Below, in pieces: positions 50,890 through 64,000 of a stretch of DNA of 64,000 nt. Position 1 is the first letter of the stretch, and every line of letters begins with the position of its first letter. The stretch spans positions 1 to 64,000 of the forward strand of contig JAKPQE010000088.1 in the NCBI GenBank assembly GCA_029572955.1, in the 5' to 3' direction. The notes beneath the pieces are model-generated. The model did not search any database and was not told where the DNA came from. It saw only the letters and a list, made by a program, of their open reading frames with translations. A program made the translations under genes and the position numbers. This DNA is from Pseudomonadota bacterium. Lineage in GTDB: Bacteria > Pseudomonadota > Alphaproteobacteria > Rhizobiales > JAKPQE01.

Positions 50890-52638
50890 CTATTCCACCG
50901 CGATCTGCATCAGCTCCTCGCCGTCGGGGTCGACGACGTGGACCGCGCAGGCGATGCACGGATCGAAGCTGTGGATGGTGCGCTGGATCTCCAGCGGCTG
51001 CTTCGGATCGGCGAGGGCGTGACGGTCCATCAGCGCCGCCTCGTAGGCGCCCGGCTGTCCGGTCGCGTCGCGCGGACCGGCGTTCCAGGTCGAGGGCACG
51101 ACGGCCTGATAGTTGTCGATGAGCCCGTCCTTGATGACGATGTAGTGGGCGAGGGCACCACGCGGCGCCTCCATGAAGCCGACGCCGCGGGCCTCCTTCG
51201 GCCAGGTCGAGGGATCCCAGAGCTCGGCATTGTGCACGGCGACATCGCCGTCCCTGATGTTGCCGATGAGGGTGTCGAGCCAGCCGGCCATCTGGTCGAC
51301 GACGATCTTGGTCTCGAGCGTGCGCGCCGCGGTGCGGCCGAGCGTCGAGAACAGCGCCTCGATCGGCAGGTCGAGCTTGCCGAGCGCCATCGTCGCGAGT
51401 TCCCGGGTCTGCTCGTGGCCCTTGGCATAGAGCATCAGCACGCGGGCGAGCGGGCCGACTTCCATCGCCTTGCCGCGCCAGCGCGGCGCCTTCAGCCAGG
51501 AATAGTCCTTCTCGACGTCGAGCTGCTCGTAGGGCGGCTTCGGCCCGGTGAAGGCGAAGCTGGTCTCGCCGTCATAGGGGTGCAGGCCCTTCTCCTTGCC
51601 GACCGAATAGTCGTACCAGGAATGCGAGACGAACTCCTGCAGCTGCTCGGGGTCGTTCGGATCGACGGGGAGGATCTCGTTGAGGTTCCGCCCGATGATC
51701 GCGCCCGACGGGATCAGCCAGGACGAGGGATCGTCCATGCCCTTGGCCGGGAAGTCGCCGAAGGTCAGGAAGTTGCCGAGGCCTTCGCCGCGCGCGAACC
51801 AGTCCTTGTAGAACGAGGCGACGGCCAGCGTGTCCGGCACGTAGACCTCGTCGACGAAGGCCTGCATCTTGGCGATCGTGTTGCGGATCTCGCCGAGCCC
51901 GACGATGTTGGTCGCGGTCGCCGCCACCGCGCCGCTCATCGAGGCCGGGCTCGAGCTGATCGGCGACGGCGCGCCGCCGACGAGGAAGTTCGGGTGCGGG
52001 TTCTTGCCGCCGAAGATCGTGTGGATCTTGACGACGTCGCGCTGCCAGGCGAGCGCTTCCAGATAGTGCGCGACGGCGATGAGGTTGACCTCGGCCGGCA
52101 GTTTGTATTCCGGGTGGCCCCAGAAGCCGCCGGCGAAGATGCCGAGCTGGCCGGCCTCGACGAACTTCTTCACCTTGGCCTGCACGTCGGCGAAGTAGCC
52201 CGGGCTCGACTTCGGGAACTTCGAGATCGACTGGGCGATCTCGGAGGCGGCCTTCGGATCGGCCGACAGCGCCGAGACGACGTCGACCCAGTCGAGGGCA
52301 TGCAGATGGTAGAAGTGCATGACGTGATCGTGCACGTACTGGGCCGCGATCATCAGATTGCGGATCAGCTGGGCGTTCGCCGGGATCGGATAGTTGAGCG
52401 CGTTTTCCACCGCCCTGACCGAGGCGATGCCGTGCACGAGGGTGCACACGCCGCAGATGCGCTGGGCGAAGGCCCAGGCGTCGCGCGGGTCGCGCCCTTT
52501 GAGGATCAGCTCGATACCGCGCACCATGGTGCCGGACGAATAGGCGCTGGTGATCGCGCCGGCCTCGCCGGTTTCGGCCTCGATGCGCAGATGGCCCTCG
52601 ATCCGCGTGATGGGGTCGACAACGACACGATTGTTCAT
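50890..52638 (-). CDS. hynL: [NiFe] hydrogenase large subunit
   Basis: 582 residues carrying the Ni-Fe active site. The N-terminal pair is C62 and C65 in QRICGVCT; the C-terminal pair is C561 and C564 in DPCIACAVH. The protein continues 15 residues past His567 (VVDPDGEELMQ and so on): this tail is cut by the maturation protease after nickel is inserted, so the protein is a genuine Ni-Fe type and not a nickel-free homolog. The order hynS-isp1-isp2-hynL matches group 1e (Isp-type) uptake hydrogenases, as in Thiocapsa and Allochromatium, linked to sulfur metabolism and the quinone pool. Here an extra gene precedes hynL. Confidence 0.95.
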   Translation of the reverse strand: MNNRVVVDPITRIEGHLRIEAETGEAGAITSAYSSGTMVRGIELILKGRDPRDAWAFAQRICGVCTLVHGIASVRAVENALNYPIPANAQLIRNLMIAAQYVHDHVMHFYHLHALDWVDVVSALSADPKAASEIAQSISKFPKSSPGYFADVQAKVKKFVEAGQLGIFAGGFWGHPEYKLPAEVNLIAVAHYLEALAWQRDVVKIHTIFGGKNPHPNFLVGGAPSPISSSPASMSGAVAATATNIVGLGEIRNTIAKMQAFVDEVYVPDTLAVASFYKDWFARGEGLGNFLTFGDFPAKGMDDPSSWLIPSGAIIGRNLNEILPVDPNDPEQLQEFVSHSWYDYSVGKEKGLHPYDGETSFAFTGPKPPYEQLDVEKDYSWLKAPRWRGKAMEVGPLARVLMLYAKGHEQTRELATMALGKLDLPIEALFSTLGRTAARTLETKIVVDQMAGWLDTLIGNIRDGDVAVHNAELWDPSTWPKEARGVGFMEAPRGALAHYIVIKDGLIDNYQAVVPSTWNAGPRDATGQPGAYEAALMDRHALADPKQPLEIQRTIHSFDPCIACAVHVVDPDGEELMQIAVE

Positions 52639-52651
52639 CTTGGGTCTCCCT

Positions 52652-53110
52652 TCACGCCTTGAGGAATTCGCCGAGGAGGCGGTACTGCGCTTCGTTCTCG
52701 CGCACCGCGGTCCCGTCCTCGTCGATGGCGACGCTGGTCCGCGCCATGCGCGCGTTCACCGCCGCCTGCCAGGCCGGATTGCCCGACTTGACGTGTCCCG
52801 GCGGCGCGACGCAGGCAGCGGCGGCGCGGGCGACGAAATAGGCCGCCTGCTCCTTCCAGTCCCCCTCCGCTCCGCAGCGCGTATGCCAGTCGATGCTGGC
52901 CCGCCGGGCCCCCTGGAATGCTGCCGCCAGGGCTTCGTCCGAACCGCCCTTGGCGGCCACCTCGACGGCGCCCGCTACCCGTTCGTCTTCGATCAGCGGC
53001 AGCACCGCGCGCACGAACAGGGCTCCCGCCTTGCGCTGGTCGGCGAGCGCCAGACCATCGAGTGCCTGGCGGAAGGCGGCTTCGTTCTTGATCTCGGCCA
53101 TCGTTCTCAT
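52652..53110 (-). CDS. Unknown protein within the hydrogenase operon
   Basis: 152 residues, soluble and helical (FRQALDGLALADQRKAGALF, then VRAVLPLIEDERVAGAVEVA). It has two Cys (HTRCGAEGDW and AACVAPP) and no motif I recognise. The ATG at 53110 overlaps the isp2 stop (ATGA), and hynL begins 13 bp after its stop, so it is locked into the operon and co-translated. In the known Isp-type operons isp2 is followed directly by hynL, so this gene is an addition. It may help HynL folding or targeting or may be a small chaperone. Not assigned. Confidence 0.7.
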   Translation of the reverse strand: MRTMAEIKNEAAFRQALDGLALADQRKAGALFVRAVLPLIEDERVAGAVEVAAKGGSDEALAAAFQGARRASIDWHTRCGAEGDWKEQAAYFVARAAAACVAPPGHVKSGNPAWQAAVNARMARTSVAIDEDGTAVRENEAQYRLLGEFLKA

Positions 53111-54381
53111 CCTTCGGCCTTGCCGGTCTCGACCAGATGCTCGGCGAGGAGCTCGGTGAGGCCGATAACGGGAATGTCCATGTTGTTCTCTTCGAGGCCT
53201 TCTTCGAGCTGGATGCGGCAGTTGGCGCAGGCGGTGATCAGCTTGTCGGGCTTGACCGCCTCGAGCTGCCGCTTCTTGGCGTTGAAGGCGGTGAGCTTCA
53301 GCTCGCCCGCTTCCTCGATCGCCGAGACGCCGCCGCCGGCGCCGCAGCACCAGTTCATCTTGCCGGCCTCGGGCATGTCGACGAAGTCCTTGACGACCAT
53401 CTTGACGAGCCGGCGCGGCTGCTCGAGGACGCCGCCGCGGCGCACCAGCTGGCACGGGTCGTGGAAGGTCATGCGCTCTTCCTCGAAGCCCTCGGTCTTC
53501 AGCTTGCCGGCGGCCCTGAGCTCGTCGAGCACCTCGAGAATGTGGCGCGCCTTGAACTTGTACGGCCGGCCGATGAGGTTCGGGCCGTCCCAGCGCAGCG
53601 CCGTATAGGCATGGCCGCATTCCGGGCTGATCACCGTCTTGACGCCGAGCTTCTCGGCGGCCGCGACGATGCGCGAGACGAGTTCGCGGGCAATGTCGGA
53701 CGAACCGATCTGGATGCCCGAATTGGTCGCCTCGAAGGCTTGGCTGGAGAGCGTCCAGGAAACGCCCGCCTCGCTGAAGATGCGGGCGATCGCCTCGAGA
53801 TATTCCGGATAGTTCATGATCTCCATCGACGACATCAGCACCAGGTAGTCGGCGCCGTCCTTGTCGACGGGGATCTGGAGCCCGGTGTCGTTCTCGACAT
53901 GGCCGATCTGGGCGGCGACCGCCTTCCAGGTCACGCCCATCGGGCTGCCGATCTTGACGGCGCGGGTCGAGGCGCCCTTGAGGCCGTCCGGCGAATAGCC
54001 GGCCGCCACCATGCCTTCACGCTGCTTGCGGATCATGCCGGCGATGTCGTTGCCGACCGGGCAGACCATCGAGCAGCGGCCGCACAGCGAGCAGGCGTTG
54101 TAGGTCAGCTCCTGCCATTCGGCGAGCAGTTCCTCGGTTACCTTCGGCGCGAGGCCGACGAGCAAGGCGAGCTTGCCGAAGAGCGTATATTCGCTCCACC
54201 AGACGCGGCGCAGCGGCTCGAGCTTGTGGATCGGCGTGTAGCGCGGGTCGCCCGTCTCGTTGAAGAACAGGCAGGCATGGGCGCACAGCCCGCAATGGAC
54301 GCAGCTCGACAGATAGGCGGAGACCGCTCCGTCGATCTGCTCCTTGAAGGCGTTGATCGCGATTTTCGCACGGTCGGTCAT
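53107..54381 (-). CDS. isp2: Isp2: HdrD-like iron-sulfur protein of Isp-type hydrogenase
   Basis: 424 residues. Two [4Fe-4S] motifs (C27-C30-C33-C37 in CVHCGLCAHAC, and C97-C100-C103-C107 in CSLCGRCSMVC) are followed by two CCG-type cysteine domains (HDPCQLVRRGG, NWCCGAGGG, CANCRIQLEEG), the layout of heterodisulfide reductase HdrD. In Isp-type hydrogenases Isp2 receives electrons from the membrane cytochrome Isp1 in the cytoplasm. The substrate of such Hdr-like parts is not settled; a disulfide or sulfur compound is often proposed. It overlaps isp1 by 4 bp on one side and the unknown gene by 4 bp on the other. Confidence 0.9.
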   Translation of the reverse strand: MTDRAKIAINAFKEQIDGAVSAYLSSCVHCGLCAHACLFFNETGDPRYTPIHKLEPLRRVWWSEYTLFGKLALLVGLAPKVTEELLAEWQELTYNACSLCGRCSMVCPVGNDIAGMIRKQREGMVAAGYSPDGLKGASTRAVKIGSPMGVTWKAVAAQIGHVENDTGLQIPVDKDGADYLVLMSSMEIMNYPEYLEAIARIFSEAGVSWTLSSQAFEATNSGIQIGSSDIARELVSRIVAAAEKLGVKTVISPECGHAYTALRWDGPNLIGRPYKFKARHILEVLDELRAAGKLKTEGFEEERMTFHDPCQLVRRGGVLEQPRRLVKMVVKDFVDMPEAGKMNWCCGAGGGVSAIEEAGELKLTAFNAKKRQLEAVKPDKLITACANCRIQLEEGLEENNMDIPVIGLTELLAEHLVETGKAEG

Positions 54382-55037
54382 GATTGCACCCCTTTGCGGC
54401 CGAAGGCCGAGCCGGTGTACCAGCGCGACAGGAACAGCGTGAACGTGTGCATCAGCTTGGTGAACGGGAAGACGACGAGCAGCAGCTCGACGCTGAGGAT
54501 GTGGAGCGCCAGCATCAGCTCGTAGCGCAAGAGCAGATGGTGGAACGCCATGTAGCCGGTCAGCAGCGGCAGGAAGGTCGCCGTCCAGGCGACGTAGTCC
54601 TCGAAGCCGGTGAGGAACCTCAGCACCTTGTCGCGCATCCGGTTGACGAGGATCGCGACGAGCGCGCCGATCGCCGCGACGGTCGCGAAGTCGACGACCG
54701 GCGTCGGCAGGTTCGGCCAGGAAAGGCCGGTGGTGTCGCGCACCAGCGCGATGTGCGGGGCCAGGAAGACGAGCGCCACGAACAGGCCGATATGGAACAC
54801 ATAGCCGGCGATGATCGTGAAGGCGCTGCGCTTGAAGGTGCCGGCTTCGGGAACCGAGCGCGAGAACACCGTCTTGAACCCGGCGCCGGTGCCGCTCTGG
54901 CGCGGCTCGGAGAAGTCGGTCTTGCGGCCGAGCACCAGGATCTCGACGAAGCGGATGAAGAGCCCGGCAAAGAAGATGGCGACCGCGATCTGGAACAGCG
55001 GGCCGCGCACGAAGTCTAGGAAGGCGACCGTTGTCAT
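54378..55037 (-). CDS. isp1: Isp1: NarI-like cytochrome b of Isp-type hydrogenase
   Basis: 219 residues with about five membrane helices. His residues in helices (GYVFHIGLFVALVF, LTGYMAFHHLLLRYELMLA and ALHILSVELLL) are candidate haem-b ligands. The protein resembles the gamma subunit of nitrate reductase. It links the periplasmic HynSL to the cytoplasmic Isp2 and the quinone pool. ATG 55037 overlaps the hynS stop by 4 bp, and its stop overlaps isp2 by 4 bp. Placement fits the family order. Confidence 0.9.
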   Translation of the reverse strand: MTTVAFLDFVRGPLFQIAVAIFFAGLFIRFVEILVLGRKTDFSEPRQSGTGAGFKTVFSRSVPEAGTFKRSAFTIIAGYVFHIGLFVALVFLAPHIALVRDTTGLSWPNLPTPVVDFATVAAIGALVAILVNRMRDKVLRFLTGFEDYVAWTATFLPLLTGYMAFHHLLLRYELMLALHILSVELLLVVFPFTKLMHTFTLFLSRWYTGSAFGRKGVQS

Positions 55038-56128
55038 GACGATTTCTCCAGATTGTCGACCGTCACCGTGTGATGGTTCTTGGCCGCGTCCTTCTTGATC
55101 GCGCGATGCAGGGCGCCGGCGGCAAGGCCGGCCGCCGCGCCGATGCCGGCCGCGACCGCCGCCGTCGGCGTGATGTCGCGCAGCGGCGTCGACAGCGGCC
55201 GGTAGAAGCCGCCCTTGTCCCAGAAGTCCGGCTCGGAACAGCCGAGGCACCCGTGGCCGGACTGGATCGGGAAGGAGACGCCGCCGTTCCACTTCAGCGT
55301 GGCGCAGGCGTTGTAGGTGATCGGTCCCTTGCAGCCGACCTCGAACAGGCACCAGCCGGAGCGGGCGCCCTCGTCGTCGAAGTCCTTGGCGAAAAGGCCG
55401 CGCTCGTAGAACGGCCGGCGATAGCAGCGGTCGTGGATCGATTCGCCGAAGAAGGCGAGAGGCCGGCCGAGCGTGTCGAGATCGGGCAGTTTGCCGAACG
55501 ACAGCAGGTAGGCGATCGTGCCGGTCATCGCTTCCGGGATCGGCGGGCAGCCCGGGATGTTGATCACCGGCTTGCCCTTGACGAGTTCGGAGATCGCCAC
55601 CGCCCCGGTCGGATTGGGGTTGGCGTGCGGGATGCCGCCATAGGCCGCGCAGGTGCCGACGGCGATCACGGCGAGGCTGTCTGCCACCGTCTCCTCCAGC
55701 ATCTGCAGGTTGGAGATGCCGGCGATCGTCGAATAGATGCCGCCGTCCTTCACCGGCACCGAGCCGTCGACGACCACCACGTACTTGCCCTTGTTCTCGG
55801 CCATGGCGGCCTCGCGGGCGTGCTCGGCGGCCTCGCCCGAGGCGGCCTGCAGCGTGTGGTGATAGTCGAGCGAGATGAAATTGAAGATCAGGTCTTCGAG
55901 GGTCGGGCTGAACGAGCGGGTGATCGACTCGGTGCAGCCCGTGCACTCCTGGAAGCTGAGCCAGATCACCGACTGGCGCTTGGCTTTCGCCAGCTCCTCG
56001 GCCATCGCCGGCGCCATGCCCGGCGGCAGCGCCATCAGCGTGGCGAGCCACGAGGTGTATTTGAGGAATGCCCGTCGCGATATCCCACGCGCGGCGAGCA
56101 TCTCACCGAGGGTCTCATGGGCCGGCAT
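55034..56128 (-). CDS. hynS: [NiFe] hydrogenase small subunit, Tat-exported
   Basis: 364 residues. The N-terminus has a twin-arginine signal (ISRRAFLKYTSWLATLMALP), so the HynSL dimer is exported to the periplasm. Iron-sulfur ligands: CTGC (residues 62, 65; proximal cluster), GTCAAYGG, PGCPP, HDRCYRR, GWCLFEVGCKG and HGCLGC. The C-terminal helix (AAVAAGIGAAAGLAAGALHR) anchors it to the membrane. ATG 56128 begins the Tat region; the frame is open upstream in another gene and is not used. It overlaps the hupH-like gene by 14 bp. Confidence 0.95.
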   Translation of the reverse strand: MPAHETLGEMLAARGISRRAFLKYTSWLATLMALPPGMAPAMAEELAKAKRQSVIWLSFQECTGCTESITRSFSPTLEDLIFNFISLDYHHTLQAASGEAAEHAREAAMAENKGKYVVVVDGSVPVKDGGIYSTIAGISNLQMLEETVADSLAVIAVGTCAAYGGIPHANPNPTGAVAISELVKGKPVINIPGCPPIPEAMTGTIAYLLSFGKLPDLDTLGRPLAFFGESIHDRCYRRPFYERGLFAKDFDDEGARSGWCLFEVGCKGPITYNACATLKWNGGVSFPIQSGHGCLGCSEPDFWDKGGFYRPLSTPLRDITPTAAVAAGIGAAAGLAAGALHRAIKKDAAKNHHTVTVDNLEKSS

Positions 56129-56570
56129 CTGGTCGGTCCTCCTTGATGGCGTCCGTCGCCCCGGCGGACGCGGTTCCGAGTGTGTCGCCGAGCCGCCGCG
56201 CAGCCGCGGCGATATCGGCGGGATGACTGAGAAGAATTTCGGGAATCCGGGTGATTTCGAGCACTTCCGCCGCGATGCGGTCGTCGCTGCCGTAATGGCG
56301 CACCCACCACACCCCGGCATGGCCGGTCTCGGCAACCGTGCTGCGGCCGACGACGGCGATCTCGGCAACGACTTCGCCGGCGCCGAGCAGTTCCTCGAGC
56401 GCCGCCTTGTCGGCCTCCGTCAGCGGCAGGCCGGCAAGGTCGATGCGGCCCGTCTCGCCGGTCTCGGCGAGCCCTGCGAGCAGCGCCGCCGCCTCGGCGA
56501 CGATCGCCCGCACGAGGCTACCGGAACCCGTCGTTTCGCCGGCGCAGGTGATGGGCAGGCTCTCGTTCAT
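56115..56570 (-). CDS. hupH: HupH/HyaF-like hydrogenase assembly protein
   Basis: 151 residues. The sequence LPLTEADKAALEELLGAGEV, then VAEIAVVGRSTVAETGHAGV and WWVRHYGSDDRIAAEVLEIT, ends with the RIPEILL block of the HupH C-terminal domain (PF04809 type). HupH/HyaF proteins help assemble the small subunit or protect its clusters. It is shorter than usual HupH, holding mainly the C-terminal domain. It overlaps the upstream protease gene by 4 bp (ATGA) and the downstream hynS by 14 bp, so it is inside the operon. Confidence 0.8.
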   Translation of the reverse strand: MNESLPITCAGETTGSGSLVRAIVAEAAALLAGLAETGETGRIDLAGLPLTEADKAALEELLGAGEVVAEIAVVGRSTVAETGHAGVWWVRHYGSDDRIAAEVLEITRIPEILLSHPADIAAAARRLGDTLGTASAGATDAIKEDRPDAGP

Positions 56571-57052
56571 GCGCCCCACCTCCTGACAATTTCGATGACG
56601 GTGTCGCAGGCCGCCGGGATCGCCGCCGCCACTGCCGGCGTCGGCGTGAGCCCCCATTCGGTCGACTGCGGCTGCACGGTGACGAGTGCGCATTGCCGCG
56701 GCGCCCGGCCTGAAAGCAGGGCGGCGTCCATGAGGTCGGCGAGCGCCACCTCGTGCACGGTCTTCTTGCGGCCGCCGATCTGTCTGGAAAAAGCTTCGCC
56801 CTCGAAGGAGCGCACGTCACCAGGCGCGGCGTCGACATCGCCCGCGTCGACGACGATCAGCCCGTCAGCGTCCTCGATTTCAGGCAGGAGAGCGAGCCCG
56901 AGAGTGCCCCCGTCGAATAGCGCGACCGACTCACCAATGTCCTCGCGCGTCCTGAGCTTGTCGACGACATGAATGCCCACGCCATCGTCGGTCAGGAGAC
57001 TGTTGCCGATACCGAGTACGACGACCCTTCTATTTTGGTTGTTCCGGGTCAT
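56567..57052 (-). CDS. hynD: Hydrogenase maturation protease (HyaD/HynD type)
   Basis: 161 residues. VVVLGIGNSLLTDDGVGIHV opens the family fold; VDAGDVDAAPGDVR and KKTVHEVALADLM follow. The three nickel-sensing positions (E16, D62, H93 in E. coli HybD) read Asp in DDGVG, Asp in VDAGD and His in TVHEV, so one is Glu to Asp, a change seen in other family members. It cuts the 15-residue tail of HynL. It is the first gene of the hydrogenase operon; the 158 bp before it hold the promoter. Confidence 0.9.
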   Translation of the reverse strand: MTRNNQNRRVVVLGIGNSLLTDDGVGIHVVDKLRTREDIGESVALFDGGTLGLALLPEIEDADGLIVVDAGDVDAAPGDVRSFEGEAFSRQIGGRKKTVHEVALADLMDAALLSGRAPRQCALVTVQPQSTEWGLTPTPAVAAAIPAACDTVIEIVRRWGA

Positions 57053-57210: not shown

Positions 57211-58434
57211 TCAGCCGACGAGGCTGATGACGAGGAGGCCGGCGGCGGTGATGGCGCCGAGCACCGGCACGATCACCGGCACCGAAATCGATGGCGTCGC
57301 TGTCGGGATCCTGCCGAGCTTGATCTTGATGAGGCTGAGATTCACGAAGACGAAGATCGTGAGGATGATCTGCGACGTCCATTCGGCGAGGATGGCGATC
57401 GGAAAGCCGAGCGCGAGGACGAGCGTCGCCGCGCCGATCAGCGCCGTCGCGTTGAGCGGCGTGCGCGTCACCGGACTGACCGCGGACAGGAACTTCGGCA
57501 GCGCGTCGCGTGCCGAGAGCCCGTAGAGCACCCGCGAGGCCATCACGATCTGCACCATGATGCCGTTGACGGTGGCGACGATCGCGATCAGCGCGACGAC
57601 CGGCGCGCCGAAGCCGATGCCCTTTGCCGCGAGGAGGGCGATCGGCGCCTCGGTGCCCGACAGTTCCTCGCGCGACAGGGCGAGCACCGTGACGGTGGCG
57701 ACGAAGAGATAGAGGACGAGCGAGACGAGGAGGGTGATGGCGATCGCCCGCGGCACGACGCGCGGCGGGTCCTCGACCTCCTCGATGACATTGTCCATGT
57801 CCTCGAAGCCGATGAAGGCGAAGAACGCGATCACGCTGCCGATGAGGATCGCCTCGACGCCCGGCCCGCCCTCGAGGCTGAACACATGCGGCAGCCCGGC
57901 GAGGATTTCCGGCTGCACCGCGACGACGCCGCCGGCGACCGCGACGAGGCCGAGGATCTCGACGACCGTCATGATGCTGGCGACGAGCACCGATTCGACG
58001 ATGCCCCAGGCGGCGATCGCCGTCAGCCCGACGACGAGCACGCTCACCACCAGCCAGGACGGCAGGTCGACCAGCGTGCGGATGTAGCCGGCGGCCCCGA
58101 GCGCGATCGCCGCCGAGGAGACGAGGCCGGCGCCGGCGACCATCAGGCCCATGATCAGCCCCATCGATTTCGAATTGAAGCCGACCTCGACATAGACCGC
58201 CTCGGCCGCCGCGTGCGGCAGCCGCGTCGCGAGCTCGGCAAAGGACAGCGCCGAGAATCCGACGACGACGCCGGCGACGAGGAAGGAGAGCGGGGCGTTC
58301 TTGCCGGCGACGACGCCGACCTCGCCGACGAGCACGTAGATGCCCGCGCCGATCGTCACGCCGAGCCCGTAAAGGACGAGGAGCGGCAGGTTGAGGCCCC
58401 GCTTGAGGGAGACCTTCTGGGTCCCGTTGCTCAT
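57211..58434 (-). CDS. APC superfamily amino-acid/polyamine permease
   Basis: 407 residues with about twelve membrane helices. The N-terminal helix holds GLGVTIGAGIYVLVGEVGVV, the APC substrate-site helix; FIGFEDMDNVIEEVEDPPRV is the conserved APC region in the cytoplasmic loop; PRAIAITLLVSLVLYLFVAT follows. The substrate cannot be told from sequence alone. GAGGTGGTC precedes ATG 58434. It is not linked to the hydrogenase genes functionally, since it is transcribed in the same direction but separated by 1.2 kb from the tRNA and 158 bp from hynD. Confidence 0.87.
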   Translation of the reverse strand: MSNGTQKVSLKRGLNLPLLVLYGLGVTIGAGIYVLVGEVGVVAGKNAPLSFLVAGVVVGFSALSFAELATRLPHAAAEAVYVEVGFNSKSMGLIMGLMVAGAGLVSSAAIALGAAGYIRTLVDLPSWLVVSVLVVGLTAIAAWGIVESVLVASIMTVVEILGLVAVAGGVVAVQPEILAGLPHVFSLEGGPGVEAILIGSVIAFFAFIGFEDMDNVIEEVEDPPRVVPRAIAITLLVSLVLYLFVATVTVLALSREELSGTEAPIALLAAKGIGFGAPVVALIAIVATVNGIMVQIVMASRVLYGLSARDALPKFLSAVSPVTRTPLNATALIGAATLVLALGFPIAILAEWTSQIILTIFVFVNLSLIKIKLGRIPTATPSISVPVIVPVLGAITAAGLLVISLVG

Positions 58435-58757: not shown

Positions 58758-58833
<76 letters not shown>

Positions 58834-58927
58834 AACGCTTCCTGATAAAAATCAATGACTTGTGATGATTTTTCCGGGCCGTGAAAACGGTCCGAAACGT
58901 GAACATGCGACCGATTTAAAAAGTCGC

Positions 58928-58947
58928 AAAGTCGCACATGCGACTTT
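58928..58947. other. Inverted repeat between tRNA and integrase region
   Basis: AAAGTCGCA-CA-TGCGACTTT, preceded by a second copy of the left arm at 58920-58927 (AAAGTCGCA overlap). It lies in the 95-145 bp after the tRNA, where a recombinase or excisionase site could be. Role unknown. Confidence 0.4.
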
Positions 58948-58977
58948 TCCGTTCTGCGGGTGTTCATGGCGCCCATG

Positions 58978-59000
58978 AAAAAGCCCGCCGAAGCGGGCTT
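58978..59000 (-). terminator. Terminator of the minus-strand phage operon
   Basis: Read on the minus strand: AAGCCCGC-TTCG-GCGGGCTT followed by a T run. It ends the integrase-side transcript 19 bp after the last small gene and prevents read-through into the tRNA. Confidence 0.85.
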
Positions 59001-59018
59001 GTGTTGGCACACTGCGTA

Positions 59019-59276
59019 TCAGCGAGGAATTTGGTAGATCTGGTGTACCGATGCCATAAGCGCAAGAGAAAGGGGGTTGAGTGTTGCCGTCTCCAACTCT
59101 TCCCACCTGACGAGTTTCCTGACTCGGAAAAAGTAGCGTTTGGCTTCGATCGACACGCCAGCGGTCGTGACAGTGATTTGCACGATCAGCTCGATATTCT
59201 CCTGCTCAAGAATGAAGGCGTCGTTCGCGGCCTCCATGAGATATCGGAGTGGGGTGCAAATGGTATTTTCTGTCAT
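59019..59276 (-). CDS. Small low-GC gene next to tRNA (unknown)
   Basis: 85 residues (MTENTICTPLRYLMEAANDA, then FILEQENIELIVQ), no recognised domain. G+C is about 52 percent, well below the surroundings. Its ATG (59276) overlaps the stop of the preceding gene (59273) as ATGA, so both are translated together. It ends directly before the terminator. The position between the integrase and the tRNA fits accessory cargo of a mobile element. Function unknown. Confidence 0.65.
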   Translation of the reverse strand: MTENTICTPLRYLMEAANDAFILEQENIELIVQITVTTAGVSIEAKRYFFRVRKLVRWEELETATLNPLSLALMASVHQIYQIPR

Positions 59277-59617
59277 ATCCCTCTCCACCAATCGAGGATC
59301 GCCATGGCGGCGGCGTCGGCCATGTCGCCGTTGCGGCTGACATAGTGGCGGTCCTGCACGCTGGCCGCCGTCGCCAGGCCATGGCCGGCGAGGGCGGCGC
59401 CCTGCGCCTGGGTGGCGCCGCGGCTGTAGGCGGCCTGCTTTTCCCTCATGTTGTCCTGATGCGACCACTCAGCCTGAATGGCACTGTCGATGTCCGGGAT
59501 CTCATCAACCCAGTAATGAACAGTTTCCTTGATCGTAATCTTCTCCGAAGGTGTTGAGTTTTCATCGGTATATATCGGTCTAGGTGGGATCGGATAATAG
59601 GTAGTCTTCCAAGCCAT
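59273..59617 (-). CDS. Unknown N-terminus fused to a second copy of the integrase tail
   Basis: 114 residues. The first 60 (MAWKTTYYPIPPRPIYTDEN, then STPSEKITIKETVHYWVDE) are low-GC (42 percent in part) and not recognised. Residues 62-111 (AAYSRGATQAQGAALAGHG and so on, to ILDWW) are 44 of 50 identical to the C-terminus of the integrase upstream, including the catalytic His (GH) and Tyr (RHYV). The gene begins at the base after the integrase stop (TGAATG). It looks like an old element end joined to a small gene, or a remnant of duplication. It could be a fusion peptide or a dead piece. Confidence 0.65.
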   Translation of the reverse strand: MAWKTTYYPIPPRPIYTDENSTPSEKITIKETVHYWVDEIPDIDSAIQAEWSHQDNMREKQAAYSRGATQAQGAALAGHGLATAASVQDRHYVSRNGDMADAAAMAILDWWRGI

Positions 59618-60862
59618 TCACCTCTCCCACCAATCGAGGATTGCCAGCGCGGCGGCGTCGGCCATGTCGCTGTTGCGGCTGACGTAGTGCCTGTCCTGCA
59701 CGGTGGCCGCCGTCGCCTGGCTGTGGCCGGCGAGGGCGGCGCCCTGCACCTGGGTCGCGCCGCGGCTGTAGGCGGCGCTCAGCGCCGTGTCGCGCATGTC
59801 CTGGTCCGTCAGGTCCGCGAGCGAGGGGCAGGCGCCCTGCGCCTCCTGGCGGACGGCGGCGAAGGCCTTGCGATAGCGCTCGGCCGTCCAGGGCCGGCGC
59901 ACGGCCTCGTCGAGGAAGACGCGCGGGCTGTCGATGCCGAGCGCCTTGCGGCGGGTCTCGGCGGCGGCGAGGCGGGCAAGGAGCGGCGGCACGAGCACGA
60001 CGTCGACGAGCTGGCCACCATCCTTGCGGCGGCGCGACTTGCCCTGGCGGACGACGACGCGGCCGCCGGCGATCTGCGGCCGGGTCAAGAGGAGGCGATC
60101 TTCCTGGCGCTGGCTGGTGAACAGGCCAAAGAGCATGACGTCGGCGACGTCGTCGCGGCCGAGGCGGGCGGCGGCGGCGAGCATGGCGGCGATCTCCTCG
60201 CGGGTCGCGGCGCGCTGGCGCCCGCGCGGCGTTTCCATGCCGAGTTCCTTGAACGGGTTGGCCTTGACGCGGCCGTCGCGCCGGCCCCAAGAGAAGGCCG
60301 AGCGCAGCGTCGTGAAGATGCTGGCGGCAGAGGATGCGCCGAGGGCGGCAAGGGTCGCCTCATAGGCGCGGTTTGCGGTGGCGGCATCGACGGCGTCGAC
60401 GTCCATCGCCCAGATCTTCGGCAGATGCTCGGCGACGCGGCGGGCGCGCTCGGCGTACCATTTCTGGGTTTTTGGCGCATTGCGGGCGAAGCGGGGCGAG
60501 GCCTTCCAGTCCTCGACCATCTCGGCGGTCGTGTAGACGAGCGCCGGCTGGCGCGACGACGCCTTGCGCCGGCGGGGCGGCGCCTTCGCCTTCTGCTCCT
60601 GGCGGGCGGCGTCGATCTCGGCGGCGCGACCGGCGGCCCAAAGCAGCGTCGCCTCGAGGGGCAGCCAGTTGCCGGCGTCGTCCTTCAGGTCCTCGGCGGC
60701 AAAGCCAAGGGCGCGGACCGTCGGCCCCGGATTGAAGCGCGGCCGGCCGTCACGCCAGTCGACATGCCGGATGGCGACGGTGATCTTCCCCATGGCGTTC
60801 ACCCCGAGGCGGCTTTTCGGGGAGGTTACACGGCGCGCGGGAGGGACGGCAAGGCGGGGCAT
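59618..60862 (-). CDS. Tyrosine recombinase / integrase of the tRNA-Lys element
   Basis: 414 residues from ATG 60862, which lies 7 bp after GGAGG; ATG 60793 (MGKITVAIRHVDWRDGR) would give 391 and is a fair alternative. The C-terminal catalytic domain contains the active-site set: Arg252 in SQRQEDRLLL, Arg357 in QDMRDTAL, His380 in LAGHSQATA and Tyr393 in RHYVSRN. Position 354 (usually His of HxLR) is Asp. It would cut and join the element at the tRNA-Lys 3' end. It is transcribed toward the tRNA with the small genes behind it. Confidence 0.88.
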   Translation of the reverse strand: MPRLAVPPARRVTSPKSRLGVNAMGKITVAIRHVDWRDGRPRFNPGPTVRALGFAAEDLKDDAGNWLPLEATLLWAAGRAAEIDAARQEQKAKAPPRRRKASSRQPALVYTTAEMVEDWKASPRFARNAPKTQKWYAERARRVAEHLPKIWAMDVDAVDAATANRAYEATLAALGASSAASIFTTLRSAFSWGRRDGRVKANPFKELGMETPRGRQRAATREEIAAMLAAAARLGRDDVADVMLFGLFTSQRQEDRLLLTRPQIAGGRVVVRQGKSRRRKDGGQLVDVVLVPPLLARLAAAETRRKALGIDSPRVFLDEAVRRPWTAERYRKAFAAVRQEAQGACPSLADLTDQDMRDTALSAAYSRGATQVQGAALAGHSQATAATVQDRHYVSRNSDMADAAALAILDWWER

Positions 60863-60864
60863 GG

Positions 60865-61524
60865 CTAGGCCTCCGGCATCCGGTCGATGTTGCGGTGGTA
60901 TGGCTTGAAGGTGGTCGCCACGACCCACGGGTTATCGTCCCATGTGCGGCCTAGGTGTTTGCCGTTGATGGCGTCCCAGAGCGCAGCGAATGCGTTGGCC
61001 GCCGTTCTGAAGTAGCCGCCGAACCTGACCGCTGCTTTCGATACTGCTGCATCGTAGTAGCCACGGCCGGTGCGCAGTCGCTCTATTCCCTCGGCCTTCG
61101 CATCACCCTCGCTGATGTCCTGTAATCGCTGCACTCGGACGGCTGAGACGCCGAGTGTCAGGCGGGACGCCCGGCGCGGCATGTGGATGGACGGGTGTAT
61201 CTTGAGGAGGCTGGCGTCGTGCCGTTCGGAGATTGACGGCAGCGGCCCATCCGCCATGTAGTGCGGCGGCCAGCTACAACCTGAGTCCGCGAAGGCTTCA
61301 CGCACCCACAGGCGATCGCCGACTTGGTACGGCGCCAATCTACCGGTCCCCGTGTCGTGATATTGGCTTTCGAATACGACGTGCATCTTTCCGATATTGT
61401 CGACGACAGTGCCGGCAAACGAAAATCCTTCCGGAATGCGCAGCACCCGCCGCGTCTGCGTCTTGCGCCCCTCGATGATGGCCCGGACCATCGGGCCGGA
61501 AAAGAGGATCGGACGGTCGATCAT
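60865..61524 (-). CDS. Phage ASCH-like protein
   Basis: 219 residues beginning MIDRPILFSGPMVRAIIEGR, then KTQTRRV. This start is typical of phage-encoded ASCH-superfamily proteins (also annotated as morphogenesis or hypothetical), which may bind RNA or nucleotides. YQVGDRLWVREAFADSG and LGVSAVRVQRLQDISEGDAK are other family blocks. The start overlaps the preceding stop (TGATG). Family likeness is good; function unproven. Confidence 0.78.
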   Translation of the reverse strand: MIDRPILFSGPMVRAIIEGRKTQTRRVLRIPEGFSFAGTVVDNIGKMHVVFESQYHDTGTGRLAPYQVGDRLWVREAFADSGCSWPPHYMADGPLPSISERHDASLLKIHPSIHMPRRASRLTLGVSAVRVQRLQDISEGDAKAEGIERLRTGRGYYDAAVSKAAVRFGGYFRTAANAFAALWDAINGKHLGRTWDDNPWVVATTFKPYHRNIDRMPEA

Positions 61525-61751
61525 CACTCGGCCTTCTTCGCGATCCACATGGTGCAGCGTTCATTGCCGAGGCGGTCGGCCGAGCGCGGGATCAGCATGT
61601 TGATGATGTCTTCCGCCGGGCTGTCGCGGTCGTAGTTGTGAAAGATCTGGATGGCCCAGACGGCGCAGCCGCCGTCGTCCCAATGGGCGCAGCTTGCGCA
61701 GTGGCGGCAGACGTAATCCTCGCCCTCGCTGCCATTCGAAAAATAGCCCAT
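61524..61751 (-). CDS. Small cysteine-rich phage protein
   Basis: 75 residues with a Cys cluster VCRHCASCAHWDDGGC (residues 14-29), which could bind zinc or an iron-sulfur cluster, and a further Cys (ERCTMW). The rest has no recognised motif. Its stop overlaps the next start (TGATG). It is part of the compact early-phage operon. Confidence 0.65.
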   Translation of the reverse strand: MGYFSNGSEGEDYVCRHCASCAHWDDGGCAVWAIQIFHNYDRDSPAEDIINMLIPRSADRLGNERCTMWIAKKAE

Positions 61752-61752
61752 C

Positions 61753-62127
61753 TCACTCGGCCTCCTTCTTGGTGGTGGCGCGATCGAGGCGTTCGATCTC
61801 GGCGAGGATGAGAGCGCCGGCCTTGACGAGCATGCGGCGGCTGTCCGGCCACGGCTTCCACCATTGCCAGGACCACGGCCAGAAGTTCAACAGGAAGCGG
61901 TCGGCCTCGGTGCTCACGCGCCGGAGCCGTGGATGGCAGGTGTCGGCAAGTAGTTCGGTCGACCAAGTAGAGGCTATCGCGTAGCATCCTGCGGCAGATG
62001 CCAACTGTCCTTTGTCGTTGTTGGCGCGGTCGTGCCCTGGCGTCATGCCCTCGTCGATGACCTGACGATCGCGTTCGGCGATGACGTCGCGGGCGGCTCT
62101 CGAAAGGACTTCCATCTCAATCATCAT
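61753..62127 (-). CDS. Prophage hypothetical protein with Trp-rich middle
   Basis: About 124 residues: SRAARDVIAERDRQVIDEG, then a His/Asp stretch and the block LNFWPWSWQWWKPWPDSRRM, ending LVKAGALILAEIERLDRA. This layout is frequent in prophages of alphaproteobacteria and has no known role. The start is uncertain among ATG 62127, 62124 and 62115. It overlaps the gene upstream in the operon by 11 bp. Confidence 0.65.
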   Translation of the reverse strand: MMIEMEVLSRAARDVIAERDRQVIDEGMTPGHDRANNDKGQLASAAGCYAIASTWSTELLADTCHPRLRRVSTEADRFLLNFWPWSWQWWKPWPDSRRMLVKAGALILAEIERLDRATTKKEAE

Positions 62128-62332
62128 CCCGGTCGCTCTTGATGGTGGCGGCCATGGCGCGGATGAACTTGCGGCCAAGGTCGGTCAATGCGTAGTTGAA
62201 GAAATCGTCGTGTTGAATATCGACGACCCCTTGCTTGGCGATCTCGTTGATCAATGTGCCGAGCGTTCTGACGTCCTGAATATCTGCGGCGACGTCGGTC
62301 AAGCTGACATTCACAGAGACAAAGTCGACCAT
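62117..62332 (-). CDS. Small low-GC phage gene (unknown)
   Basis: 71 residues (MVDFVSVNVSLTDVAADIQD, then VRTLGTLINEIAK). The C-terminal part, LTDLGRKFIRAMAATIK, looks like a small winged-helix end. G+C is below 50 percent in part. GGAGTGAG lies directly before ATG 62332 inside the previous gene's end. Unknown function. Confidence 0.6.
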   Translation of the reverse strand: MVDFVSVNVSLTDVAADIQDVRTLGTLINEIAKQGVVDIQHDDFFNYALTDLGRKFIRAMAATIKSDRDDD

Positions 62333-62333
62333 C

Positions 62334-62597
62334 TCACTCCTCCCCGCCGGCCATGCCGAGGGCATGGAGATAGAGATCGAGGAGGCTTTCGGCCTCGTCG
62401 CGCGCGTCCTTGTCGAGGCGGCGGATGCGCAGCACTTCGCGCATGGTCTTGACGTCGAAGCCCGTTCCCTTGGCCTCGGCGAAGACGTCGCGGATGTCGT
62501 CGGCGATCGCCTTCTTCTCCTCCTCGAGGCGCTCGATGCGCTCGATGAAGCTCCGGAGCTGGGCGCCGGCGACGCCGCCGGTGTTGGTGGTGGTCAT
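62334..62597 (-). CDS. GapR / DUF2312 family DNA-binding protein
   Basis: 87 residues: [20 protein letters not shown], then [19 protein letters not shown] and a closing [14 protein letters not shown]. This is the GapR (DUF2312) fold, a helical tetramer that clamps overtwisted DNA ahead of moving polymerases in Caulobacter. A phage-borne copy may help replication or shape element DNA. Length and all conserved blocks match the family. ATG 62597 is the first family residue. Confidence 0.88.
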
Positions 62598-62672
62598 GGG
62601 GTTGGTCCTGCTGAAAAAGGTGGGCCGGTACGAGAGACGAAGCCCGGCCTCGAGTCGGGAGGGAGTTCGGAG

Positions 62673-62933
62673 TCAGTCGACCATCGGGTTGGTCGCGCCG
62701 ACCGTCGGGTCGCCTTCCAGCGCGCAGCGCGCGGCCATGGTGGCGACCTGAACAGCCTCGACACGAACCGCGTCCCAATCGATTTCCTTGCCTTCGGCAA
62801 AATGAAGGAGAGCCTTTGCGAGCTCGCCGACTTCTTCCGTCAGGGCAGCGAGATTGGGGTTCGGCCGAGGGTATTTCTCGGTTGCCCGCTTGTGCTCGGT
62901 GAAGACGTCGCCGAGGAAGTCCTGGATCGTCAT
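62673..62933 (-). CDS. MazG-like nucleotide pyrophosphohydrolase
   Basis: 86 residues, one MazG-like all-alpha domain: ALTEEVGELAKALLHF holds the ExxE Mg motif and VRVEAVQVATMAARC the second acidic helix. Phage MazG proteins hydrolyse (d)NTPs or ppGpp and can help the phage in starved hosts. ATG 62933 starts MTIQDFLGDVF; longer frames upstream lack a match. Confidence 0.78.
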   Translation of the reverse strand: MTIQDFLGDVFTEHKRATEKYPRPNPNLAALTEEVGELAKALLHFAEGKEIDWDAVRVEAVQVATMAARCALEGDPTVGATNPMVD

Positions 62934-62947
62934 GGCTTGGGTCCTTC

Positions 62948-62975
62948 TGGATCCCCGCCTTCGCGGGGATGACGG
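62948..62975. repeat. REP-like hairpin element
   Basis: GGATCCCCGC-CTTC-GCGGGGATGACGG: an 8-bp perfect stem ATCCCCGC/GCGGGGAT with a tetraloop. This motif is a common dispersed REP-like sequence in alphaproteobacteria. It lies just upstream of the MazG-like gene. Confidence 0.7.
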
Positions 62976-63070
62976 TGGAAGTGAAGAAGTGGCGAGCGCG
63001 GCCGGGCGATACGCGGCGCGGGGGAGGCAGGTCGCGCCATTCGCCCGGCCCTCCCGGCCCGCCGCGGGGA

Positions 63071-63433
63071 TCAGGTGTCGGGGGTCGGCATCAGCGCGGC
63101 GACCGTCGGCCAATCGCGCTGCAGGTAGGCGGCGAGGAATTCGCGCAGGTCGTCATCGTCGTCGATGACGGTCGCGGCGGCGATCGCCTCACGGGCCGAA
63201 CAGGGCGGCGTCATGGCGCGCGCGGCGCCGGCGGCTTCTTCGAAGGTGTCGAAGCGGCCGGTGCATTCCTCGAACAGGCATCTGGAAATCGGGTGGTCTA
63301 TTCCCCCGGCAGGAGTGCAGACCAAGGCGTCGTAGAACGCGATGTCGACATGGACGACGGCGAGGGGAAGGAAGCGCAGGCTGCCCTTCTCCCAGCTTTC
63401 CAGCAGCGTGTAGAACAGGATCTGCCTAGCCAT
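63071..63433 (-). CDS. Phage hypothetical protein (tandem paralog 1)
   Basis: 120 residues. The middle CTGRFDTFEEAAGAARAM, then TPPCSAREAIAAA, is shared with the gene immediately upstream (63426-63788), so the two are a tandem duplication. The N-terminal halves differ, the C-terminal parts are both acidic (DDDDDLREFLAAY). Two conserved Cys (CTG, PPC) may pair or bind metal. Unknown function. Confidence 0.7.
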   Translation of the reverse strand: MARQILFYTLLESWEKGSLRFLPLAVVHVDIAFYDALVCTPAGGIDHPISRCLFEECTGRFDTFEEAAGAARAMTPPCSAREAIAAATVIDDDDDLREFLAAYLQRDWPTVAALMPTPDT

Positions 63434-63788
63434 GATCGGGCTCCCTGGCGTCGAGGTATTCGCGCACCGTAGCGAAGTCGCCCAGAGTCCAAGCCTCGAG
63501 GAAAAAGCGTATGTCTTCGCTGTCGGCTATTTCAGCGGCGAATTCGATCGCCTCACTGGCTGAACAGGGCGGCGTCATGGCGCGGGCGACGCCGGCGGCT
63601 TCTTCGTGGCTGTCGAAGTGCCCCGTGCAAAGTTCGGTACTGACGACGAGCCAGCCGCTTTCGCCGTCCCGCTCGACGACGCCGAAGTGGAGCCCGAAAA
63701 GGGTGGCTCGAACGGCGACGACTTCGAACACGTAGCGCTCGCCATCCTGCCGTTCCCGCAGGGTCCATGTGGGTCTCCGCCTAGCCAT
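63426..63788 (-). CDS. Phage hypothetical protein (tandem paralog 2)
   Basis: 120 residues, paralog of the gene at 63071-63433: CTGHFDSHEEAAGVARAM, then TPPCSASEAIEFA. The N-terminus (RPTWTLRERQDGERYVFEVV) is different, so only the module from about residue 55 is duplicated or conserved. It overlaps the next gene by 8 bp. Unknown function. Confidence 0.7.
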   Translation of the reverse strand: MARRRPTWTLRERQDGERYVFEVVAVRATLFGLHFGVVERDGESGWLVVSTELCTGHFDSHEEAAGVARAMTPPCSASEAIEFAAEIADSEDIRFFLEAWTLGDFATVREYLDAREPDHG

Positions 63789-64000
63789 CGGTCTTCTCCC
63801 CGGCGCTCAGCCGCGCGACGGCGATGGTGATGTTTTCAAGGGCGGCGAGCGCCGCGCCAAGGTCGTTCGCCAGGCTTTCGGCGAGGCCGGCAAAGCGGCC
63901 CTCGATGGCACCGAGGCGCTCCTCGATGTCGATGATCTTTTCCCGTTGGGTGATCGTCCGGGTGGCCGGGGCCTGCCGGGCGCGGCAGGAGCAAAGGTCG
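63781..64000 (-). CDS. Partial coiled-coil protein at window edge
   Basis: The C-terminal 72 codons of a gene that starts beyond 64000. Read from the edge: TITQREKIIDIEERLGAIEG, then a helical stretch ending SAGEKTDG. The heptad spacing suggests a coiled coil, as in small phage scaffold or lysis-associated proteins. It overlaps the following gene by 8 bp (stop 63781, next ATG 63788). Confidence 0.6.
   Translation of the reverse strand, partial: DLCSCRARQAPATRTITQREKIIDIEERLGAIEGRFAGLAESLANDLGAALAALENITIAVARLSAGEKTDG

Follow-up and report, generated by a model that had tools for sequence, protein, structure and literature searches.

In the window, by which we mean the whole stretch of 64,000 nucleotides analysed here, the gene next to a phage integrase encodes a small protein that starts with an unrelated sequence and ends with the C-terminus of the integrase. 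The locus raises the question of how a piece of a recombinase came to close an unrelated small gene, and whether this piece is part of a working protein, a recombination site or the trace of an exchange between phages.

A second integrase end behind the integrase gene

On the minus strand, read toward tRNA-Lys(CTT), the order is integrase, 114-codon open reading frame (ORF) and 85-codon ORF (Table 1), which makes two integrase-cargo junctions within one genome, the second of them provided by a copy of the integrase tail. The original prediction had stated that residues 62-111 of the 114-residue protein are identical to the integrase C-terminus at 44 of 50 positions, including the catalytic His and Tyr, that the N-terminus is unrelated and of low G+C, and that a start codon stands at once behind each tail (TGAATG and ATATGA). 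The alignment bore out the identity, the first 61 codons have a G+C of 0.47 against 0.73 around them (0.735 in the tail copy and 0.736 in the integrase tail), and both junctions were found as described.

At the DNA level, the two tails are in frame with each other at a spacing of 342 bp, and their local alignment score of 118, compared to a maximum of 26 in 300 Markov shuffles, shows that the match is not due to chance. Over the 50 codons they differ, by the counting method used, by 6 synonymous and 7 non-synonymous changes; the resulting dN/dS of 0.34 comes from a weak test (p 0.08) that does not separate the models. The homology begins sharply at a GCCGCC codon pair, upstream of which the similarity is not significant (shuffle fractions of 0.14 and 0.28); an extension back to the QDxR motif of the integrase, for which the cargo has QDNMR, was likewise rejected as not significant. 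On the other side it reaches as far as the following start codon, its last bases being interrupted by an indel, and runs into a GGAGAGG stretch resembling a ribosome-binding site ahead of cargo gene B; the start of this gene and the stop of the fused ORF share the sequence ATGA. Judged from the assembled sequence, an assembly error is unlikely, as the two sides of the joint have no long word in common.

The copied part carries GH(S) and (H)Y at the positions where related integrases have their conserved His and Tyr. The fused protein lacks the full catalytic set, since it begins past the second Arg motif and His and Tyr alone remain; because it is without the catalytic Arg residues, it is probably a by-product and not a recombinase.

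The integrase itself matched the PHROG integrase family phrog_1 (E 1.6e-22) over residues 82-410, which covers the catalytic domain by the criterion used, and did not reach Pfam PF00589; a survey by PF00589 (61 genomes, among the matches listed) gave no lead. R252, K275, R357, H380 and Y393 are invariant among nine aligned integrases, and we take them to be the catalytic Arg, Lys, (H/Q)xxR, His and Tyr of a tyrosine recombinase. The true start is probably near 60793 and not at 60862, as relatives begin at the Met of M(G/A)K... Distant relatives, 31-40% identical, were detected at E 1e-40 in 13 of 397 genomes of the order, including this one; this genome alone matched at 1e-50 in the class sample (1/385), and the phylum sample (2/398) returned it together with one genome found already. 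Relatives were absent from the phage and plasmid collections searched.

Table 1. Features at the integrase end of the prophage (window positions).
Feature	Position	Strand	Remark
tRNA-Lys (anticodon CTT), integration target	58758..58833	+	ARAGORN
attL core, 51-bp repeat	58788..58838	+	common to attR at G000:C40:65800-65850 (reverse)
Prophage, attL side	58839..64000	.	continues to the end of contig C129 (67696), then on C40 to attR
13-nt motif AAATCAATGACTT	58849..58861	+	
Cargo gene B	59019..59276	-	85 aa, without credible homologue
Fused ORF, N-terminal part of cargo A plus integrase tail copy	59273..59617	-	114 codons, 114 aa
Second copy of integrase 3' end	59285..59434	-	150 nt, 91% identical
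Cargo gene A, remaining part	59435..59617	-	61 codons, G+C 0.47, without credible homologue
Tyrosine integrase	59618..60862	-	stop TGA abuts ATG of fused ORF
Integrase 3' end, counterpart of the copy	59627..59776	-	

The prophage and its attachment sites

The attachment sites that the original prediction had proposed to look for at tRNA-Lys do exist: the tRNA gene is restored at one end of the element and its 3' part is found as a 51-bp direct repeat at the other, this being the one further copy of the tRNA 3' part in the genome, on contig C40, where there is no tRNA gene. The end of the window's contig (C129) and the reverse complement of the C40 end overlap by 19 identical bases, from which the element would measure about 8.86 + 29.59 kb, i.e. 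about 38.4 kb. The families assigned by PHROG between the two sites comprise repressors, primase, terminase, head-tail adaptor, tail proteins, internal virion protein and endolysin; judging from this gene content, the element is a temperate phage integrated in tRNA-Lys(CTT).

The att search found the two outer sites alone and no inner att site between the tail copies. Comparison of the tRNA pattern with one genome of the same family (G001) gave no match, and no empty site was seen there. The 13-nt motif beside attL occurs inverted (AAGTCATTGATTT) on the element side of attR; such an inverted pair flanking the att core may possibly represent arm-type integrase sites.

On the host side, a NiFe hydrogenase cluster (50890-57052, minus strand; large subunit, Fe-S/cysteine-rich protein, small subunit and HycI-type maturation protease) adjoins the tRNA, and is followed by an amino acid permease at 57211-58434. 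Within the phage, beyond the window, a 113-aa ORF (L020:9949-10290, i.e. C129:65948-66289) consists of repeats of about 14 residues (KAEIAEKQRAYYEAN-like) and has no Pfam match.

Integrase ends and cargo genes in related phages

A profile built from nine integrases retrieved 104 relatives from IMG/VR, of which 80 were kept; leaving out 9 loci with under 150 nt downstream gave 71. As some loci are near-identical (L040/L041, L096/L098/L101/L107, L014/L076), the counts are not of independent phages. An ORF of at least 50 codons begins between -25 and +30 of the integrase stop in 45/80 loci, and in 30/71 an ORF of at least 60 codons (ORFs open to the contig end also accepted) overlaps the integrase stop by 4 nt, counted back from the end of the stop codon, compared to 10.8 expected from shuffled downstream DNA. 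The cargo varies widely between phages: when 92 proteins were compared all against all, matches were few except among near-identical phages. Judging by this excess of overlapping ORFs and the divergent cargo, phages of this integrase clade usually have a slot for a variable gene, coupled to the end of the integrase. In this gene layout the ribosome-binding site and the overlapping start codon of the cargo lie within the last ~25 nt of the integrase gene, which would couple translation of the cargo to that of the integrase.

In 85 loci (the 71 viral loci, 13 genome loci and this phage), we then matched the terminal 24 nt of the integrase gene to the ends of the ORFs behind it, using as control the integrase ends of other phages; pairs of integrases that agree at 16 or more of these 24 positions were excluded from the swap. 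Three loci showed a copy of the integrase end, at 19/21 (L077), 18/21 (L056) and 17/21 (L082) compared positions, against a maximum of 15 in 6,914 comparisons with swapped ends. In all three, the copy is in frame in the first gene behind the integrase and contains that gene's own stop, and a further ORF starts at the copy with the same 4-nt overlap. The copied part is about 20-27 nt, about 8 residues, without His and Tyr. With an identity of about 31-45% among these integrases and to the one studied here, the joints are taken to be separate events. The copy best matches the end of its own phage's integrase in L056 and L082, with a tie between own and relative in L077, so that an origin from two phages is not proved for them.

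The ungapped test misses the copy in this phage, because of the indel, and that in L088, which is not at an ORF end; for both, the evidence is the alignment score against shuffles. L088 contains a 60-nt remnant of the integrase end (score of 35, compared to at most 19 in 1,000 shuffles), which is out of frame, lies behind several small genes and is preceded by a repeat of the start of another cargo gene. This stretch (L088:5585-5671, with the cargo-start remnant MTTPRYAD... followed by the integrase tail remnant) forms a second mosaic scar, far behind the integrase. L092 was borderline, with 13 positions and a control fraction of 0.005. A tail match of 38 aa and 32% identity in L089, with the frame broken by stops and 2.4 kb behind the integrase, was omitted as chance. 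The 13 genome loci had no tail copy, two weak matches in them being chance-like (L009, 28% over 50 aa; L016, 38% over 21 aa), and a search with close relatives of L077 and L056 gave no new case. Among unrelated tyrosine recombinases in the same sample of relatives, 0/20 had such a copy; the difference from the 4/85 counted here (this phage, L056, L077 and L082) is not significant.

The right edge of the homology is the start of the next gene and the left edge varies, from 150 nt here to about 20-27 nt in the relatives, as would result if integrase-cargo junctions were preserved intact and the second breakpoint fell at random.

Cargo presence and absence could be followed in three IMG/VR loci (L043, L046 and L050) with integrases 99.3-99.7% identical. 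The common next gene, 76-90% identical, is directly behind the integrase in L046; in L043 and L050 it is separated from the integrase by an additional gene (216 or 171 codons), the edges of which lie at AGGAGAA-like ribosome-binding motifs before the next start. No tail copy is present in L043 and L050, so short common motifs at ribosome-binding sites may suffice.

A different arrangement was observed in L091 (4776-5324, plus strand) and L095 (4719-5285, plus strand) from IMG/VR, where a protein of 182-188 aa between the integrase and the contig end joins an N-terminal domain like that of the integrase itself (WRxGRPRF) to a MUG113/T5orf172 domain, which is presumably GIY-YIG-like. Both loci end, in the translations, near a tRNA-like sequence, in which ARAGORN finds no tRNA gene. 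A further scan found the fusion in these two loci alone, a match in L117 covering the nuclease-like part only. We speculate that the fusion might aim a nuclease-like domain at the arm sites of the integrase. The integrase pieces behind integrases thus look like two kinds, scar-like tail copies and an N-domain fusion resembling a real gene.

Origin of the joint and comparison with known systems

The fused protein was found in 1/150 genomes searched, i.e. in this genome alone, and the searches run gave none in IMG/VR (by peptide patterns), phages or plasmids. A conserved protein was thus rejected, and the wide conservation that the original prediction had named as evidence against itself did not occur. 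Neither cargo A (61 aa) nor cargo B gave a credible homologue in the 297 genomes searched for each; five weak matches per cargo gene outside this genome (E 0.009-0.09 for A, 0.02-0.09 for B) were taken as chance. Likewise, the searches found no phage that could be a parent, carrying either integrase-cargo A or integrase-cargo B, and the nearest integrases are about 40% identical.

We consider it probable that the locus is a chimeric joint, derived from two related phages and situated where a temperate phage has a slot between its integrase gene and its attachment site. Two phages, one with integrase-cargo A and the other with integrase-cargo B, would have recombined in such a way that cargo A lost its 3' part and received, in its place, the second integrase's tail with cargo B behind it; the resulting order would be integrase, truncated cargo A, integrase tail and cargo B. 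The likeliest route would start from two related prophages integrated in tandem at the same tRNA-Lys, with a deletion that removes everything from a point within the tRNA-proximal integrase to a point within cargo A; a deletion between tandem prophages at the tRNA would give exactly the order observed in the element (tRNA, cargo B, tail, part of cargo A, integrase). Recombination between free phage genomes would lead to the same product, and we make no firm choice between the routes; there is no junction microhomology at this joint to identify one. The in-frame tail would have been retained because it carries the translation start of cargo B. We read the tail copy as a scar that also provides the region where translation of the next gene starts, rather than as a recombination site.

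A local duplication in a single phage, in which slippage, template switching or gene conversion copied the integrase 3' end behind an inserted low-GC gene, appears rather unlikely. It would agree with the fact that no second parental phage is known and with the copies in L056 and L082, which fit the integrase end of their own phage best; on the other hand, the copy here has diverged by 9%, with both synonymous and non-synonymous changes, and plain tandem duplication would not yield the order seen with two unrelated cargo genes. A tandem duplication of tail plus cargo is rejected outright, since cargo A and B are not copies of each other.

More doubtful still is a general reading in which, within this integrase clade, the last 25-150 nt of the integrase gene, comprising a homology arm, a ribosome-binding site and a start codon, act as a reusable module by which the cargo so bounded is added, removed and swapped; if true, this would be an array-like storage of accessory genes needing no dedicated recombination sites. 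We regard as very unlikely that cargo plus integrase-end copy is a unit exchanged repeatedly by homologous recombination between the tail repeats: the in-frame cases do have the order repeat-cargo-repeat in direct orientation, and a cargo gene can be present or absent in near-identical phages, but no two different integrases were seen to be followed by one and the same cassette with its tail, and L043 and L046 differ without a tail repeat. That the fused protein functions, e.g. with its C-terminal segment entering or blocking the integrase tetramer, is highly improbable, as it is not conserved and the copied part in the relatives is about 8 residues without His and Tyr, in spite of the intact ORF and a tail dN/dS below 1.

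The chimeric joint also bears on the stepwise gain of cargo that the original prediction had proposed, with recombination in or near the integrase 3' end. The comparison of element ends that it had called for gave the same kind of joint in relatives and cargo presence/absence behind a 99.7% identical integrase, both of which support recombination at this place, by which cargo may be gained or lost; the earlier reading of cargo gain by recombination at the integrase end is broadly right. A joint of this origin explains how part of a recombinase can come to close a small protein unrelated to it, a case in which automatic annotation might wrongly report an integrase, and it marks a concrete slot for harvesting unknown small phage genes, possibly defence or counter-defence genes.

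In SSV-type integrases attP lies inside the gene, and a 3' remnant is left at the other end; a split of the integrase by attP of this type is ruled out here, as the att core lies elsewhere. In the accessible part of a report on attP inside a repressor gene, a 3' gene remnant is likewise described at the other prophage end (PMC9934374). The locus resembles such attP-in-gene systems, as far as these excerpts go, in the 3' gene fragment near an att site, and differs in that the integrase is whole and that the tail copy, at a distance of about 450 bp from the att core, contains no core itself. Tandem prophages at one att site are described in the available portions of two reports (PMC9934374, PMC8112680); two phages at the same att site are the substrate of the deletion proposed above, and, in contrast to those portions, the tail of the second integrase and cargo B alone would remain here, with no inner att site. 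The excerpts of the literature covered by our search contained no report of integrase 3'-end copies closing cargo genes, which does not show absence from print.

The successive addition of genes beside a tyrosine recombinase gene recalls integron gene cassettes; unlike these, the repeated element is integrase coding sequence and not a recombination site. Morons and module-boundary mosaicism involve small genes of odd composition, gained or lost at a fixed site of the phage by illegitimate or short-homology recombination. The genes here are likewise small, unrelated, compositionally odd and at a fixed place, whereas the joint repeatedly brings the integrase 3' end along with the ribosome-binding site and start of the next gene. 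In mechanism, the locus is a variant of known phage mosaicism, which can be recognised here from the integrase end left behind and from its recurrence. How temperate phages take up accessory genes and leave the neighbouring genes intact is usually inferred from faded scars; here the scar can still be read, and it recurs in distant members of one integrase clade.
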